A DNA stretch of 64,000 nucleotides from the NCBI RefSeq assembly GCF_002210285.1, contig NZ_MWQE01000009.1, positions 62,001-126,000 of the forward strand. Direction: 5' to 3'. The stretch is from Fibrobacter sp. UWR2. GTDB taxonomy: Bacteria > Fibrobacterota > Fibrobacteria > Fibrobacterales > Fibrobacteraceae. Positions 13,842-20,992 of this stretch are shown here, piece after piece. The notes beneath the pieces were generated by a model. The model was not told the origin of the DNA. It made no database searches and saw nothing but the letters and a program-made list of their open reading frames with translations. The stretch's first letter is position 1. Each line of letters begins with the position of its first letter. Both the position numbers and the translations under genes were made by a program.

Positions 13842-13930
13842 GGGAAGATGGCCGAGTTGGCCGAAGGCGCGTCCCTGCTAAGGACGTATAGGACTTAATC
13901 CTATCGCGAGTTCGAATCTCGCTCTTCCCG
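13842..13930 (+). tRNA. tRNA-Ser (anticodon GCU)
   Basis: An 89-base class II tRNA. The acceptor stem GGGAAGA (13842-13848) pairs with TCTTCCC (13923-13929), with G as discriminator. The anticodon stem CGTCC/GGACG encloses the loop CTGCTAA, with anticodon GCT at 13877-13879. A long variable arm (TAGGA/TCCTA) is as expected for serine. The T arm is GCGAG/CTCGC with loop TTCGAAT. It reads AGC and AGU. The 3' CCA is not encoded. Confidence 0.97.
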
Positions 13931-13937
13931 CTGCAAA

Positions 13938-14063: not shown

Positions 14064-14678
14064 ATGCAGAAAGTGTCTAAAATATACCTCGCCTTGACAA
14101 CCGCAATCTGCGGGTTGTTCTGTGGGTGTTATGACGGGGAAATGGAATGTTATGATTCAAATCGGTTTGTTAGTTTAAATTTCTTGACAACGGATGAGTT
14201 TGACAGTATTCAATTGTACCTAAATGAAAAGCACATATGTTATGGTGACGTGGGCGTTTATTATGAGCAAATTATATGTCAGGATACTGGACGTTTTTTG
14301 GTTGCCACAGTCGTGTCAGAAGCGGATGTTGATAAGTGTGTTTTATCGGAAGAGAATCCTATATGGTACGGTTTTCATTGCTTTGTTGGCAAGCCCTCTG
14401 ATGGGATAGACGTCAATTCTGCAAAAATACGTGCACAGATATTTTATAAGGATGAAAAAAGTTGGATTGAGACACCCTTGAATACTTGGGGCGGAAATTA
14501 TGTTAATGTGATTGCTGAAAGTGACACTACTCGGTGGTTTACTTATGATAAAAATCCAGTAAGACCATATTTTGATGATTACGATTCTCCGTCTTCGTCT
14601 AATCGTGTAGGTTGCTATGACGGTTACTGTGTAGCGACGTTGCCGATTGTAAAAGAAGAATTTTGCTACGATAAGTAA
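14064..14678 (+). CDS. Tandem-family lipoprotein, copy 1 of 7
   Basis: A 204-residue predicted lipoprotein of unknown function. The signal peptide (QKVSKIYLALTTAICGLF) is followed by CGCYDGE, with the lipid-accepting Cys at about residue 22. The mature protein has a divergent middle, a mid-protein Cys/IW motif (CVLSEENPIWYGFHC), a VIAESDTTRWFTY segment, and the family C-terminus GCYDGYCVATLP...FCYDK with three conserved Cys. The start is the ATG at 14064. An AAAGGAG at 14032 is too far upstream and only GTAAGG lies close, so initiation may be weak. Base composition is visibly AT-richer than the flanks. First gene of the array, immediately behind the tRNA-Ser terminator, and 3 bases before copy 2. 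Confidence 0.85.
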   Translation: MQKVSKIYLALTTAICGLFCGCYDGEMECYDSNRFVSLNFLTTDEFDSIQLYLNEKHICYGDVGVYYEQIICQDTGRFLVATVVSEADVDKCVLSEENPIWYGFHCFVGKPSDGIDVNSAKIRAQIFYKDEKSWIETPLNTWGGNYVNVIAESDTTRWFTYDKNPVRPYFDDYDSPSSSNRVGCYDGYCVATLPIVKEEFCYDK

Positions 14679-14681
14679 GTC

Positions 14682-15290
14682 ATGCAGAAAAAGTCTAAAA
14701 TATACCTCGCCTTGACAACCGCCATTTGCGGGTTGTTTTGCGGTTGCTATGACGGGGAAGTTGAGTGCTATGATTCAAGGGAGTATTTGATAATAAATAT
14801 TTTATCAGCTACAAATATTGATAGTGCGATAATCAGTATAAATGAATCTCAAAAGTGTTATTTGAATAAGATTCGATTATATGCAAAATTAGAAAGTGAA
14901 GAATTTTTTTATGATGAGGGAGTCAATAAAAATGTAACCGATATAGAACGATGTGATTCAGTAGAGAAATGTTTTTTCTGGAAATCTGCAGGATGTATTT
15001 TAGGTCATTCTGACAAGATCGACATTGATACAAATTACATCTCTATACTTTTGTTTGATGGCTCTCAAGAAAAAATTATCAGTATTGATAAACCTTTTTC
15101 TAGCAATAATATGATCAATATAATTCCAGAATCAGATACTGCCGAATGGTTTGGTTATAAGGAAAATCCAATAAGACCGTTTTTTGATGTGTTTGATTCT
15201 CCGGCTTCGTCGAATCGTGCCGGTTGCTATGATGGTTATTGTGTTGCAATGCTGCCAATGGCAGATAACGATTTTTGCTACGACAAGTAG
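14682..15290 (+). CDS. Tandem-family lipoprotein, copy 2 of 7
   Basis: 202 residues, same layout as copy 1. The signal peptide and CGCYDGEVECYDS start are nearly identical, and the C-terminus is GCYDGYCVAMLP...FCYDK. The middle differs: it has more Ile/Asn/Lys and a RCDSVEKCFFWKSAGC motif, closest to that of copy 7. It starts 3 bases after the stop of copy 1, so the two share a message. The VIAESDT-type segment is present as IIPESDTAEWFGYKENP. Confidence 0.85.
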   Translation: MQKKSKIYLALTTAICGLFCGCYDGEVECYDSREYLIINILSATNIDSAIISINESQKCYLNKIRLYAKLESEEFFYDEGVNKNVTDIERCDSVEKCFFWKSAGCILGHSDKIDIDTNYISILLFDGSQEKIISIDKPFSSNNMINIIPESDTAEWFGYKENPIRPFFDVFDSPASSNRAGCYDGYCVAMLPMADNDFCYDK

Positions 15291-15305
15291 AAGAAAGGAT
15301 AGGGA

Positions 15306-15962
15306 GTGCAGAAGATACCTAAAATATTCCTCGTCTTAACAACCGCTATCAGCGGATTGTTCTGTGGGTGCTATGATGGGGAAACGGAATGCTTTCCTCC
15401 GGGAGCCCGGTTCTATCATAATTCGACACTGGATGTAGATAGTGTCCAATTTTATTTGGACGATGAACGGATATGTTATGAGCAATTGATTGTTGAAGAT
15501 GGAATATGTACGAATTGCCCTAAAATAAAAGGAAATCTTTTTGAGAATATAATGTGCCAAAATTCAGTTGATGATGAATCCTATAGTTTTTTTTCGTTTG
15601 GCGATGAATATATAAACAATTGTGTTGCAACAGAGGATTTTCCTATATGGAGGGCTTTTGATTGCAGCATAAATGAAAAGTTGTATAAGAAATCTATAGA
15701 TTCGTTAAAGTTAACGATGCATGTTTTTTTGAAAAATGAAAGTAAAAAAATTGAATTAGGAATAAAGATTGCTGATGGAAATCACTATAATATAATTGCC
15801 GAGCAGGATACGGCATTGTGGTATAGTTATACATCTGTTACGATGAGAGACTATTTTGACTACTATGGCCCTGCAAGTGCATGGAAAAGGTCTGGCTGTT
15901 ATGACGGTTATTGCGTTGCGATATTGCCGATGGCTGAAAAAGATGTTTGCTATGATAAGTAA
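15306..15962 (+). CDS. Tandem-family lipoprotein, copy 3 of 7
   Basis: 218 residues, starting with GTG at 15306 by comparison with the other copies (an AGGGAG site just precedes it). The signal peptide is slightly diverged (LVLTTAISGLF) with lipobox Cys in CGCYDGETEC. The middle has extra Cys (GICTNCPKIKG, MCQNS) not seen in other copies. The C-terminus is GCYDGYCVAILP...VCYDK. One of the two more diverged leaders (with copy 7), so it may have escaped recent sequence exchange. Confidence 0.83.
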   Translation: MQKIPKIFLVLTTAISGLFCGCYDGETECFPPGARFYHNSTLDVDSVQFYLDDERICYEQLIVEDGICTNCPKIKGNLFENIMCQNSVDDESYSFFSFGDEYINNCVATEDFPIWRAFDCSINEKLYKKSIDSLKLTMHVFLKNESKKIELGIKIADGNHYNIIAEQDTALWYSYTSVTMRDYFDYYGPASAWKRSGCYDGYCVAILPMAEKDVCYDK

Positions 15963-15965
15963 GTC

Positions 15966-16511
15966 ATGCCGAAGATTTCTCCTAAAATATACCTCGCCTT
16001 GACAACCGCAATCTGCGGGTTGTTCTGTGGATGCCATGAGGGAATTGAGACGAAATGTTATGATTCAGATCAGTATGTATTTTTGAGAATTATATCTACG
16101 ACACATATTGATAGTGCCCATTTTTTTCTCAATAATCAGCGAGTTTGTGAGGGTGGACTAAGTAAGAAAGAATACCTGTGCAATGAGGATGATTGCCCTG
16201 TATGGGACGTTTTTTCCTGTGGTCTCGGTCCTTTGGAGAATGTTGATTTTGATTCAAGTAAGATGAGCATTGAGATTTTTATAAAAGGAGACATAAATAA
16301 TATAGAGACGGACTTCACTGTAATTGGCGGGAATGATATTAATGTCATTCCCGAACAGGATAGTGCTAAATGGTTTAGTTATAAGGAAAATCCACTTGGT
16401 CAAATCTATGGTTCCCCACAGTTGTCGAAACGTGCCGGTTGCTATGACGGCTACTGCGTCGCAACGTTGCCGATTGTAAAAGAAAAATTTTGCTACGATT
16501 TATCCAATTAA
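15966..16511 (+). CDS. Tandem-family lipoprotein, copy 4 of 7
   Basis: 181 residues, the shortest copy. The N-terminus MPKISPKIYLALTT is shared with copy 5, not with copies 1-3. After the lipobox Cys the sequence is CGCHEGIETKCYDSD. The middle is short, with CNEDDCPVWDVFSC, then NVIPEQDSAKWFSYKENP and the C-terminus GCYDGYCVATLP...FCYDLSN, so it ends slightly differently from the others. It starts 3 bases after copy 3. Confidence 0.83.
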   Translation: MPKISPKIYLALTTAICGLFCGCHEGIETKCYDSDQYVFLRIISTTHIDSAHFFLNNQRVCEGGLSKKEYLCNEDDCPVWDVFSCGLGPLENVDFDSSKMSIEIFIKGDINNIETDFTVIGGNDINVIPEQDSAKWFSYKENPLGQIYGSPQLSKRAGCYDGYCVATLPIVKEKFCYDLSN

Positions 16512-16533
16512 AAGTATATAAATTATTAGCATC

Positions 16534-17232
16534 ATGCCGAAGATTTCTCCTAAAATATACCTCGCCTTGACAACCGCAATCTGCGGGTTATTCTGTGGTT
16601 GCTATGATGGCGAAATCGAGTGTTATGATTCAGACCGGTTTGTTTCTTTGAGAGTCATATCAACAACAAATATTGATAGCGTGTATTTTTTTCTGGATGA
16701 CCAACGTGTATGCAATAAAGAAACAGGTATCGACCAGAAATGGTTTTTATGTAATGATTCTACCAACAAAGTTCCAGTTTATATTCAGCCAACTTCAGAT
16801 ACTATTCCTGATGGTTGTGAACTGCGGGCAGGGATGTGGATATGTATGGAGCATAAAAATGGCCTAAGACAATTGCCGTCATTCGAATATAATCCCGACA
16901 ATTGTGTTGTATCGCAGGCTTATCCTATTTGGAATGGATTTTCTTGCGAGATTGATCCTTTTGATGATGTTGAATTAGGTAAGAGTAAATTAAGTATGCA
17001 AGTTTTTTCCCATGAAAAAGAAGTCAGGATAGAAACGGATTATGTTGTAGCGGGTGGATATAATGTCAATATCATTTCTGAACAAGATAGTTCTATGTGG
17101 TTTAGTTACAAAAAAAATCCGCTAGATCTCATTAATAATGTTCCTGATCGCACAACTCGCAATGGATGCTATGATGGCTACTGTGTGATGACTTTGCCGA
17201 TAGTTCTTGATAGATATTGCTACGACAAGTGA
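16534..17232 (+). CDS. Tandem-family lipoprotein, copy 5 of 7
   Basis: 232 residues, the longest copy. The first 26 codons are almost identical to copy 4 at DNA level, and residues 26-60 (CYDSDRFVSLRVISTT) also resemble copies 1 and 4. An insertion of about 45 residues in the middle (VPVYIQPTSDTIPDGCELRAGMW...) accounts for the length. The tail is GCYDGYCVMTLP...YCYDK. The stop at 17232 is 14 bases before the GTG of copy 6. Confidence 0.85.
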   Translation: MPKISPKIYLALTTAICGLFCGCYDGEIECYDSDRFVSLRVISTTNIDSVYFFLDDQRVCNKETGIDQKWFLCNDSTNKVPVYIQPTSDTIPDGCELRAGMWICMEHKNGLRQLPSFEYNPDNCVVSQAYPIWNGFSCEIDPFDDVELGKSKLSMQVFSHEKEVRIETDYVVAGGYNVNIISEQDSSMWFSYKKNPLDLINNVPDRTTRNGCYDGYCVMTLPIVLDRYCYDK

Positions 17233-17246
17233 AAAGAGGTAATGTG

Positions 17247-17879
17247 GTGCAAAAGTTATCTATAATATACCTTGCTTTGACAACCGCAATCTGCGGGTTG
17301 TTTTGTGGTTGCACTACTAGCGACGAATGTTCTGTTTATGATGACGCAGTCAAAACGATGTTCTTCTTTTCGGCAAATGATAATCGGTTATACGAACAAT
17401 ATGGACAATCTATAGGGGACTATATCCCATATGACGAATCGGATGAAGGGGCCATAGAGGTCTTGTTTACCTTGAATGGCGATACCATTTGTCAGTCGAG
17501 TAGATATGACATAGGGACTTGGGCCGTTGTCAATATCGAAAATCATTATAGCTACCCGTCTGTTGTTAAGTACACGTGCAGAGCGGGTGTGTATTGCCAC
17601 AAGGTCAAGTCGTCGAAACACAATACGCTAAAGATGAATATCGTTAGGAATGGTTCGTCGGGCAAGGAACTGTATACTGATAGTATTGAGGTAAAGTACA
17701 ACTATGCGTATGGGTTCTTTTTAGAGCAAGATTTGGAACAGATTCAGAAATCATCCGATCCCGATGTTGACATCTCAAACCAAAAGTGTATAAATGGCGT
17801 CTGCATGTTTTCGTACAAGAAAAACAATGGTGTCTGCAAAAGAGGGACCCTGGGCGACGAATGCTTTATAGAACCATAG
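17247..17879 (+). CDS. Tandem-family lipoprotein, copy 6 of 7 (shared leader, unrelated body)
   Basis: 210 residues, starting with GTG at 17247, chosen by alignment of the leader with the other copies. An open TTG ten codons upstream overlaps copy 5. Only the signal peptide (IIYLALTTAICGLF, then CGC) matches the family. The mature part has no CYDGE start, no CYDGYC tail and a different Cys pattern. It ends KCINGVCMFSYKKNNGVCKRGTLGDECFIEP, with only a faint echo of the family tail (CxxGxC). This looks like a conserved leader joined to a foreign or strongly diverged body. Confidence 0.8.
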   Translation: MQKLSIIYLALTTAICGLFCGCTTSDECSVYDDAVKTMFFFSANDNRLYEQYGQSIGDYIPYDESDEGAIEVLFTLNGDTICQSSRYDIGTWAVVNIENHYSYPSVVKYTCRAGVYCHKVKSSKHNTLKMNIVRNGSSGKELYTDSIEVKYNYAYGFFLEQDLEQIQKSSDPDVDISNQKCINGVCMFSYKKNNGVCKRGTLGDECFIEP

Positions 17880-17899
17880 GCTGCTCATGCTGGTAAAAT

Positions 17900-18517
17900 A
17901 TGCAGAAGATATCTAAAATATTCCTCGTTTTAATAACCGCGATTTGCGGGATATTTTTGGGGTGCTACTATGATGGTGCAGATGTTGAATGTTTTGATAC
18001 AAAGGAATATATATCTATTCACATACTATCTACTACAAAGATTGATAGTGCAGATATGTATTTAAGTGGGGAGCAGGTGTGTCATATAAAACGCGTATAT
18101 ACTTTTGTTAAGCCTGCTAATGAAATGTATTTTTCTGATAAAGATTTACATAAGGTGTTGACTGGTGAAGATCTGTGCGACTCGTTAGAAGAATGTCCTT
18201 CTTGGTATGATTTGGGGTGTTATTTAAGAAAACCTCCTAATAAAATCAGAACCCAAGATACCCTTGTTTCTATGCACTTATTTGAAGGATTGCAAAGAAA
18301 GGAACAAAATATAACCATACCAGCTATAGGCGGGAATAATATCAATGTCATTTCTGAACAGGATACAGCTATATGGTTTGGTTATAAGGACAATCCTATG
18401 ATACCTTTTTCCGGCGATTTTAGAGCACCGGCCTCATCGAATCGTGTTGGTTGCTATGACGGTTATTGTGTAGCAAAGTTGCCAATAGAAGATAAGGAAT
18501 ATTGCTACGACAAATAA
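17900..18517 (+). CDS. Tandem-family lipoprotein, copy 7 of 7
   Basis: 205 residues. The leader is diverged (KIFLVLITAICGIFLGC), giving a more classical lipobox with Leu at -2. The mature start is CYYDGADVECFD. The middle resembles copy 2 (LCDSLEECPSWYDLGC against RCDSVEKCFFWKSAGC). It then has NVISEQDTAIWFGYKDNP and the tail GCYDGYCVAKLP...YCYDK. Last gene of the array; no strong terminator follows, only T-rich sequence. Confidence 0.84.
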   Translation: MQKISKIFLVLITAICGIFLGCYYDGADVECFDTKEYISIHILSTTKIDSADMYLSGEQVCHIKRVYTFVKPANEMYFSDKDLHKVLTGEDLCDSLEECPSWYDLGCYLRKPPNKIRTQDTLVSMHLFEGLQRKEQNITIPAIGGNNINVISEQDTAIWFGYKDNPMIPFSGDFRAPASSNRVGCYDGYCVAKLPIEDKEYCYDK

Positions 18518-18652: not shown

Positions 18653-19006
18653 ATGAAGACAAGTAGTTTTCTGACGGGTGTCGCCCTGGGCGCAGTTGCG
18701 GCCTTTTTGGCGAACAAGAAGTTCGGTGACAAGCTCTGCCCCTGCAGTTGCAAGTGCGACGATGAAGCCGGCGACAGTGCTGCCAAGGAAGCCGAAGATG
18801 CCGTCGAGAAACTCCGCGGCTCGGTGGAAAGCCTGACCGGCGAACTGAACAAGCGCATCGAGTCGGAACAGACTTTCGCTGCGAAGTGCAAGGACCTCGA
18901 AGACAAGGTGCTCATCAAGGAAACCGAAATCGAGAACCTCAAGAACACCATCGCCGCGAACGAGGTGCAGACCCGCAAGCTCGAAGAAGAACTCGCCAAG
19001 AAGTAA
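18653..19006 (+). CDS. Small anchored coiled-coil protein with a CPCSCKC motif
   Basis: 117 residues. A hydrophobic N-terminal segment (SSFLTGVALGAVAAFLANKKFG) is followed by the Cys cluster CPCSCKC and then about 80 residues of Glu/Lys/Leu-rich coiled coil ending EEELAKK. The layout resembles YtxH-type envelope stress proteins, but similarity is only in architecture. The four closely spaced Cys could bind a metal or form disulfides. The ATG at 18653 has AAGGAG at good spacing. Function unknown. Confidence 0.75.
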   Translation: MKTSSFLTGVALGAVAAFLANKKFGDKLCPCSCKCDDEAGDSAAKEAEDAVEKLRGSVESLTGELNKRIESEQTFAAKCKDLEDKVLIKETEIENLKNTIAANEVQTRKLEEELAKK

Positions 19007-19029
19007 TCGCATTTCGGGCGGCTTTCGAT

Positions 19030-20121
19030 ATGCGGTTTGACGAAGGCGCAATCCTTTCGCTTTTGCAGGGCGGGAAGGCCGAAGGTGTATTCAACAAGGC
19101 GGTGGCGGGCTTTATATTGCCCGACGGCAGTACGCGCACAGTTGCGCTCGATACGCCCGCCGATACGGTGTTCGACATCGCAAGCCTCACGAAGGTTTGC
19201 CCTACGTCAACGCTTGCGCTCAGTTACATTCTGGAGGGCAAGCTGGGGCTCGATGCCCGCGTTATAGATTACATCCCTGAATTGCAGACAAACTACCGCG
19301 AAGACATTCGCGTGTTCCACCTGCTTACGCACAGCCTGGATTACCGCGTGCCGATGAAGACCTTGCGCACGCTCCCGCCCGAGGGTATACTGGAGGCGCT
19401 TTTTACCTACCAGTTCGCGAAGGCGCCCGGGGCGGATTTCAATTACGGGAACCCGGCGAGCGTGTTGCTCGGCATGATACTGCAAAGGCTTACGGGCAAG
19501 GACCTGCAGCAGCAGGGGCGCGAGCGGTTCTTTATGCCGCTCGGTATGGCCCGCAGCGGCTGGGACCCGCTGACCCGCGAGTGGAACCCGATTGCGGTGG
19601 AAGAAATCGCCCCGACGGAAATCTGCAGTTTCCGAGGGCGGGAAATCCGCGGCGAGATACACGACGAGAGTGCGTGGGTATTGCGCAAGCTTTTCCCGGT
19701 GGGGAGCGCCGGCATGTTCAGTTGCGTGCCCGACCTCTTGAAGTTCGTGAAGATGGTATTGGATGATGGCGCCGCTTGTGGTCCGGATGGCGCGGAAATC
19801 CGGGTCGCGCCTGCGGGTATCCTCGATATGGTGAGCCGGAATGCGTTTCTGTTGCCGGAAGCCCGCGCGTATTCAAGTGCTGCGGGCGCCTGCACAGCCC
19901 TTGGCTGGGAACTTGCCCAGGGCAAGTTCATGGGGTCGCGCGTGTCGCCCCGCACCTTCGGCAAGACGGGCTTTACCGGGGCGAGCATCGTCGCCGACCC
20001 AATCGCAGGCGCCGCAGTTGTGCTGCTCTCCGATTTCACGTACCCGCACCGCGAGGCAAGTGCTGACCGCATCCATGCCTTCCGCGCCAAGCTTTCCGAC
20101 GCATTTTTTGGCGCCGTTTAA
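19030..20121 (+). CDS. Beta-lactamase-fold serine hydrolase (class C/esterase type)
   Basis: The 363-residue product has the penicillin-recognising triad of the superfamily: SLTK (IASLTKVCP, near residue 52), a YGN that fits YxN (FNYGNPAS, near 139) and KTG (GKTGFTGAS, near 315). No signal peptide is visible, so it is probably cytosolic and not a secreted beta-lactamase. Members of this family include esterases, D-amino acid peptidases and transferases. The ATG at 19030 was chosen because the family fold begins soon after; no good ribosome site precedes it. It lies 23 bases after the coiled-coil gene, so the two may be co-transcribed. Confidence 0.82.
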   Translation: MRFDEGAILSLLQGGKAEGVFNKAVAGFILPDGSTRTVALDTPADTVFDIASLTKVCPTSTLALSYILEGKLGLDARVIDYIPELQTNYREDIRVFHLLTHSLDYRVPMKTLRTLPPEGILEALFTYQFAKAPGADFNYGNPASVLLGMILQRLTGKDLQQQGRERFFMPLGMARSGWDPLTREWNPIAVEEIAPTEICSFRGREIRGEIHDESAWVLRKLFPVGSAGMFSCVPDLLKFVKMVLDDGAACGPDGAEIRVAPAGILDMVSRNAFLLPEARAYSSAAGACTALGWELAQGKFMGSRVSPRTFGKTGFTGASIVADPIAGAAVVLLSDFTYPHREASADRIHAFRAKLSDAFFGAV

Positions 20122-20518: not shown

Positions 20519-20992
20519 TTACCGGCCGGCTGCCCTCTTCTGCATTTCCTTGCGCTGCGCTTCGGCGAAGAGGCGCGCCATTTCCATGCGGTTGTTTTCC
20601 TGTTCCTTCTTCTTGGTCTCTTCCTTGCAGTTCACGCACTTGGTGGCCGTGGGCACGGCCATGAGGCGCGCCTTCGGGATAAGCTGCTTGCACACCTTGC
20701 AGATGCCGAACGTACCGTTGCGGATGCGCTGGAGCGCCTCTTCGAGGTACACGAGGTACTTGCCTTCGCGGGCGGCAAGCGAGAAAGTGGTTTCGAGCGT
20801 GTTGTAGTCTGTCGCAGAGTCGGCGCTGTCAGAATCTCCGCCGTCGCCAGATTGGCTCTTCTGTCCTTGGAATGCGTTGGCCCTTTCCGATTCACTCTGC
20901 GCAGTTACCAACTGGCGACGCTTCTCGACGAGCATCTCCTCGAAAAACTTCAAGTCGGCATCGCTCATTTTCGCGGGTTTCTTTTCACTCAT
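20519..20992 (-). CDS. DksA/TraR-type zinc-finger regulator
   Basis: The 157-residue protein has a helical N-terminus and a C-terminal four-Cys zinc finger, CKVC...CVNC with 17 residues between the pairs, preceded by the family motif RIRNGTFGICKVCKQLIPKARL. DksA-like proteins enter the secondary channel of RNA polymerase and, with ppGpp, reset transcription during starvation; others of this group act in sporulation or phage. The insertion of Gly/Asp/Ser-rich residues (about 45-60) lies where the coiled-coil tip would be. An AAAGGAG site precedes the ATG at 20992. It is followed by the bidirectional terminator. Confidence 0.85.
   Translation of the reverse strand: MSEKKPAKMSDADLKFFEEMLVEKRRQLVTAQSESERANAFQGQKSQSGDGGDSDSADSATDYNTLETTFSLAAREGKYLVYLEEALQRIRNGTFGICKVCKQLIPKARLMAVPTATKCVNCKEETKKKEQENNRMEMARLFAEAQRKEMQKRAAGR

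Follow-up and report, generated by a model that had tools for sequence, protein, structure and literature searches.

The 64,000-nt stretch of the Fibrobacter sp. UWR2 genome analyzed here (the window; G000:C9:62001-126000, where G000 is this 3.28 Mb genome of 20 contigs) carries seven complete lipoprotein open reading frames (ORFs) lying head to tail on the + strand at 14064-18517. We judge it fairly probable, from comparison of genomic sequences, that they form an orphan array of immunity or inhibitor lipoproteins belonging to an undescribed family, and that the cognate partner, a large secreted protein with a papain-like core (hereafter PEP), has been lost from this genome. The genes stand in tandem, their family is linked to PEP, PEP has been lost repeatedly at other loci, the number and order of the copies have changed between sister species, and the leaders (the signal-peptide coding DNA) have been homogenized within the array.

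PEP is about 1,160-1,220 aa long and its core is C39/C70-like. When both the genus and the family Fibrobacteraceae were searched, members of the lipoprotein family turned up at many loci, in 34 of the 111 genomes and in 6 of the 11 genera; with the first profile, its presence was patchy (25 of 80 Fibrobacter genomes). A family lipoprotein is encoded directly 3' of every near-complete PEP of this subtype (8/8: G018, G036, G035 and two loci of G020, and G096, G109 and G110 from other genera), and a PEP gene or its remnant lies at most 400 nt upstream, on the same strand, of 26 of the 58 family lipoprotein genes. The sequences of PEP and its partner co-diverge (Mantel r 0.69, p 0.007, 7 pairs). 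At one of the G020 loci (contig C29, L083:4826-11587), a PEP gene with one internal stop is placed between two family lipoprotein genes. This locus is itself located between the orthologues of the window ORFs 18886-20121 and 20519-20992, ~2 kb from the array position and at a different junction. We found no PEP of this subtype in the genome of the window or in that of its sister species, Fibrobacter sp. UBA7003 (G009, a metagenome-assembled genome).

Some PEPs have different neighbors. The gene end of a ninth, divergent PEP in G105 is overlapped by a 160-aa lipoprotein of a different family (L192:3770-4252), which may be an unrelated protein filling an equivalent role. The UWR2 genome, too, contains PEP paralogues with other partners: on contig C1, the loci L151:3371-7558 and L152:4119-8674 combine them with other small secreted proteins, and at L151 two paralogous-looking proteins of 254-256 aa flank the PEP-like gene on both sides, as in an inhibitor-peptidase-inhibitor operon.

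PEP comprises a signal peptide, an N-terminal region, a core with Cys, His and Asn, TSP3-like repeats and a DUF7305-like C-terminus. The core residues C568, H696 and N717 (L091 numbering) are invariant in 8 sequences, with the motifs NRCWLTMAQ, HAMVLNGY and HLLN, and the pattern identifies them as the presumed catalytic residues. The core matched the Pfam families Peptidase_C39_2 in five of the eight (best E 1.3e-4) and Peptidase_C70 in four (best E 0.024), that is, not in every member, and a sequence search of the PDB with it returned no match; we regard it as a putative papain-like cysteine peptidase. The N-terminal region has a weak match to the endoglucanase chain 2l8a (E 0.0085), which we take to be a CBM3-type module.

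The remnants indicate that PEP has often been deleted while the lipoprotein was retained. At L193:3742-5271 (G110), an in-frame deletion has removed PEP residues ~273-983, including the whole core, with both ends kept, and a lipoprotein resembling copy 6 of the array (a likeness judged from its ends) begins 12 nt after the core-less gene; two further copy-6-like genes also follow PEP remnants. At L169 and L173, a single ORF that fuses the PEP signal peptide to the PEP C-terminal tip precedes a family gene, and L171 contains three units in tandem, each made of a PEP tail and a lipoprotein.

In the window, the array is an A+T-rich island (GC 0.34-0.42 vs 0.547 for the window, with 36-40% for the island) located 3' of tRNA-Ser(GCT) and 5' of a ytxH-like gene, and a search of the genome found no further family members elsewhere in it. 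Each copy has its own start codon and signal peptide, a lipobox of the LFCGC type is present in 7/7, and the stop-to-start gaps are 3, 15, 3, 22, 14 and 20 nt if copy 6 starts at GTG 17247, confirming the seven tandem genes reported in a preliminary description of this DNA. Since the ORFs are full-length, closely spaced and equipped with their own start and lipobox, all seven are probably expressed. The array and its flanks are as follows.

13842..13931, + strand: tRNA-Ser(GCT), 5' flank of the array, called by ARAGORN.
14064..14678, + strand: copy 1 lipoprotein, 204 aa; leader 14064-14129; orthologue of G009 copy a.
14682..15290, + strand: copy 2 lipoprotein, 202 aa; leader 14682-14747; groups with copy 7.
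15306..15962, + strand: copy 3 lipoprotein, 218 aa, GTG start; leader 15306-15371; orthologue of G009 copy d.
15966..16511, + strand: copy 4 lipoprotein, 181 aa; leader 15966-16034; orthologue of G009 copy c, body dS 0.24.
16534..17232, + strand: copy 5 lipoprotein, 232 aa; leader 16534-16602, 97% identical to that of copy 4; sister of copy 4.
17247..17879, + strand: copy 6 lipoprotein, 210 aa, GTG start; array leader (17247-17312) and a G009-type spacer; member of a divergent subfamily.
17900..18517, + strand: copy 7 lipoprotein, 205 aa; leader 17900-17965; orthologue of G009 copy b, body dS 0.28.
18653..19006, + strand: gene for a ytxH-like small protein without a Pfam match; flanks the array on its 3' side, as it does in G009.

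The six main copies are homologous over their full length, copy 1 matching each of the others at 43-52% identity with the leader counted, and they have in common conserved Cys residues and the motifs IDS, PxWxxFxC, GGNxxNxIxEQDTxxWFxY and GCYDGYC...CYDK/CYDL. Their bodies are 46-63% identical to one another and 37-43% identical to that of copy 6. Copy 6 aligned with the family at an hhalign probability of 96.6%, partly via its leader, its body has a near full-length match to a lipoprotein of another genus (32% identity, E 1e-37), and in another genus, genes related to it stand immediately downstream of peptidase remnants; by these alignments, copy 6 belongs to the family as a distant member. 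In the family tree, copies 2 and 7 are near neighbors, as are copies 4 and 5, and the closest peptidase-linked relative of copy 1 is the lipoprotein of G036.

The preliminary description had seen constant ends around variable middles, and we found the leaders and tails to be alike and the bodies to diverge; the bodies, however, are homologous over their whole length. The near-identity that it noted among the leaders of copies 1, 2, 4, 5 and 6 was borne out (82-97% at the DNA level, with copies 3 and 7 at 76-85% to the others), as were the leader variant common to copies 4 and 5 (MPKISPK), the closeness of copies 2 and 7, and the GCYDGYC...CYDK/CYDL C-terminus in 6/7 copies. The two ends differ in what they signify. 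The C-terminal motif is conserved throughout the family, including single-copy genes at other loci, and is therefore not by itself a signature of recombination. The shared leader DNA is specific to this array.

A CCGCAATCTGCGG-type palindrome occurs in the signal-peptide coding DNA at 14101-14113, with equivalents in copies 3-7. An RNA structure in the shared leader was considered as a candidate and rejected, as the leaders fold no better than shuffles (z 0.70 to -1.61), and a promoter scan found sites no more numerous than expected.

The array is not fixed at its site, as is evident from comparisons between species with one genome per species. In G009, an array occupies the same tRNA-Ser/ytxH site and reads 1-7-4-3 from the tRNA-Ser, followed by ytxH, compared with 1-2-3-4-5-6-7 in the window. 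The G009 array is split over two contigs by a break inside the copy 4 orthologue; since the parts on the two contigs, a head and a tail, are both copy-4-like, we took them as one gene, and four genes are a minimum. After the last G009 copy come two fragments that match copy 6 colinearly, at 157-191 and 609-633 (E 2.7e-7 each); a GACGA repeat lies at their junction, and by this arrangement they are the deletion scar of a gene lost inside the array. Thus, the number and order of the genes differ between the sister species, with gene loss within the array; a changed number was what the preliminary description had named in advance as support for its idea. In G064, G070, G043 and G019, no array is present: the ytxH-like gene directly follows the tRNA-Ser (~85-140 nt), so the site is empty. 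A scan of the genome contig collection matched only UBA7003, the G009 genome, and the viral contigs scanned contained no relatives. Past the tRNA-Ser and ytxH in other species (L069 and L071), genes for type I restriction-modification, a C5 cytosine methylase and AAA/DUF4143 proteins mark a variable region.

The leaders and the bodies of the copies have different histories. First, the identities of orthologous bodies between the window and G009 were 89% (7/b), 87% (4/c), 77% (3/d) and 68% (1/a), vs 74, 76, 79 and 58% for their leaders, and within each array the leaders were 82-97% (copies 1, 2, 4, 5 and 6 of the window; bodies 39-63%) or 88-89% identical (G009 b, c and d; bodies 47-54%). Second, in quartets of copies, leader sites bring together the copies of one genome, body sites the orthologues (permutation p about 5e-5, three informative quartets), with site counts, leader against body, of 6 to 2 against 0 to 64, 5 to 0 against 2 to 164, and 4 to 1 against 1 to 59; the signal was weaker in quartets that included G009 copy a, which has a leader unlike the rest. 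Third, the spacer AAAGAGGTAATGTG preceding copy 6 recurs upstream of three G009 genes. The one-to-one match of bodies between species, together with leaders that are alike within a genome, supports tandem recombination and gene turnover, with the recombination between copies seen in comparisons between species. Last, the seven copies are scattered across the family tree (6 label changes for 7 rows), so that the array is a set of old lineages with a homogenized leader and not a recent burst. The recombination between cassettes envisaged in the preliminary description therefore survives for the leaders and for the number and order of the genes, and fails for the bodies, which are whole, old lineages without shuffled segments.

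The bodies are under purifying selection (dN/dS 0.12-0.45), and those of 4/c and 7/b have a dS of 0.24-0.28 vs 0.85-1.26 for the flanking genes. Being far younger than the genes around them, these two bodies suggest exchange between the species after their split. Leaders more alike than bodies were also found in the arrays of G020, G059 and G104 and in most of G107 and G110. A constant-leader pattern of this kind recurs in an unrelated family in G063 (L097:230-4903), where a secreted protein of 1,131 aa is flanked by two lipoproteins that agree over their first 40 residues and then diverge.

Searches of the databases gave the lipoproteins no known identity. For the seven copies, Pfam and NCBIfam returned chance-level matches only, with no inhibitor family; the Pfam matches of 29 family members likewise included no inhibitor family, a PDB sequence search with the family found nothing, and neither Pfam nor NCBIfam has a family for these lipoproteins. 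Among open-license papers, we found no description of them.

If the family serves immunity or inhibition, the ancestral place of its genes would be directly downstream of PEP, PEP would be an active, harmful peptidase, and the lipoprotein in the envelope would bind and neutralize its cognate or a near-cognate PEP, targeting the species' own PEP where there is one and the PEPs of competitors where only lipoproteins remain. Loss of PEP would be tolerated or favored, and selection for protection would keep the protector against the PEPs of neighbors. The array would then represent a repertoire of old, divergent specificities, in which short homologous blocks on the 5' side (spacer and leader) and the 3' side may permit unequal crossing-over and conversion that duplicate, delete, reorder and re-leader the genes. 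We offer more tentatively, as possible rather than probable, a wider proposal of an undescribed antagonism among Fibrobacteraceae, in which a large secreted, possibly fiber-bound papain-like peptidase harms competitors on plant fiber and is countered by envelope lipoproteins, with weaponless species keeping recombining orphan arrays as a defense.

Several results weigh against the orphan immunity array. A majority of the family genes (32/58), including all seven array copies, have no detectable PEP remnant. The co-divergence of PEP and lipoprotein may come partly from shared species history, and PEP may be neither toxic nor active but an ordinary extracellular peptidase. The model of copy 1 is beta-rich (pLDDT 76, from a shallow alignment), and a fold search with it found no relation to a known inhibitor or immunity protein; Ig-like and other beta matches had Z of 5-6.5, within background, and no staphostatin or TipC was among the matches listed, which excludes nothing. 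Without a convincing relative, the structure neither supports nor excludes an inhibitor. As for the leaders, those of G110 copies 2 and 4 are alike because the whole genes are alike, and the G051 pair has unlike leaders.

The main rival is that the lipoproteins are helpers of PEP (a chaperone, an activator, or a secretion or surface-anchoring partner) and that the orphans serve other secreted proteins. The tight operon linkage of lipoprotein and PEP would fit a helper, and where PEP relatives lack a gene of this family, a different small secreted partner occupies that position, in one case with PDZ and FlgD-Ig domains. Nevertheless, a dedicated helper does not explain the retention, amplification and diversification of intact lipoproteins at places where PEP is missing or core-less, and the known pattern is an operon in which a peptidase is accompanied by its inhibitor on one side or on both (PMC2873492); we consider a helper role unlikely. 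It is distinctly improbable that the lipoproteins are surface proteins for plant-fiber attachment or polysaccharide binding, co-opted with a secreted partner that bears a carbohydrate-binding module: the genus degrades cellulose and the PEP N-terminal region has its weak 2l8a match (E 0.0085), but the lipoproteins have no carbohydrate-binding match beyond single weak ones, and such a role would not explain why the peptidase was lost repeatedly while its partner stayed.

The preliminary description had likened the locus to antigenic variation, in which recombination shuffles the middles of a displayed surface lipoprotein. Conserved ends, divergent bodies, array-specific leaders, recombination and copy-number changes are all in keeping with such cassettes, but all seven copies are complete ORFs with a start and a lipobox, without an expression site or silent incomplete cassettes, purifying selection acts on bodies that have orthologues between species, and the family is linked to a peptidase and not to a display system. 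We give antigenic variation very little credence, and the genomic partner points to immunity or inhibition instead. Least likely of all are old, stable paralogues with distinct housekeeping roles, which, according to the preliminary description, the same seven genes in the same order with middles matching one to one across distant strains would show; the bodies are indeed ancient and one-to-one between species, but the number and order in G009, the empty sites elsewhere, the copy 6 deletion and the patchy occurrence of the family at many loci contradict stability.

The putative orphan immunity array resembles several known systems in part. In the TipC and EsaG arrays, immunity genes in tandem recombine through blocks of conserved sequence (PMC9484751). 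The TipC arrays of streptococci, like the array here, consist of tandem lipoprotein-type genes with conserved 5' and 3' blocks, a variable center, recombination between paralogues and variable copy number, whereas TipC is linked to the type VII secretion system (T7SS) toxin TelC in Gram-positives (PMC9484751). The family here occurs in Fibrobacterota, its partner is secreted and papain-like, and no T7SS was seen; the likeness to TipC is one of layout only. The EsaG arrays of Staphylococcus aureus also contain tandem divergent paralogues with short homology blocks driving gain and loss, but EsaG counters the T7SS nuclease toxin EsaD with arrays at the toxin locus, while the proteins here are lipidated and their cognate partner is absent from the genome (PMC9484751). 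The homogeneous polyimmunity loci of polymorphic toxin systems share tandem, same-strand close paralogues with no toxin gene between them and a content that differs between genomes (PMC3482391). Here, no PEP or PEP remnant stands between or before the seven copies, and immunity is putative and is deduced from genomic linkage to a papain-like peptidase.

Another parallel is the pairing of a secreted papain-like peptidase with a co-encoded small inhibitor, in some cases a predicted lipoprotein, in the C10 peptidases and Bfi of Bacteroides fragilis, staphopain/staphostatin and SpeB/Spi (PMC2873492). In bfi1A-bfp1-bfi1B of Bacteroides fragilis, inhibitor genes lie on both sides (PMC2873492), as the lipoprotein genes do at G020:C29. 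These inhibitors are 116-138 aa, staphostatin-like, without large orphan arrays (PMC2873492), and have no sequence match to the array family. The adjacency to the peptidase that characterizes staphostatin and Bfi is found in the family, at 8/8 near-complete PEPs, and not in the window array itself. Finally, the tandem units of L171 and L172 are reminiscent of Rhs loci with displaced C-terminal tips, in which strings of partner-gene remnants lie beside an intact locus (PMC2935791); in Rhs the toxin tip varies, whereas here the remnant tail is conserved and the lipoprotein varies.

These results caution against always reading antigenic variation into tandem lipoproteins with conserved ends and variable middles. 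How members of Fibrobacter, a main fiber-degrading genus of the rumen and hindgut, compete is poorly understood. If the pairing of PEP and lipoprotein is right, it would provide a testable effector/immunity system for the phylum and a family outside Pfam and NCBIfam, and the array would be a natural case of orphan immunity evolution, in which the partner was lost and the protector was kept, amplified, reordered and, through recombination, provided with a common leader.

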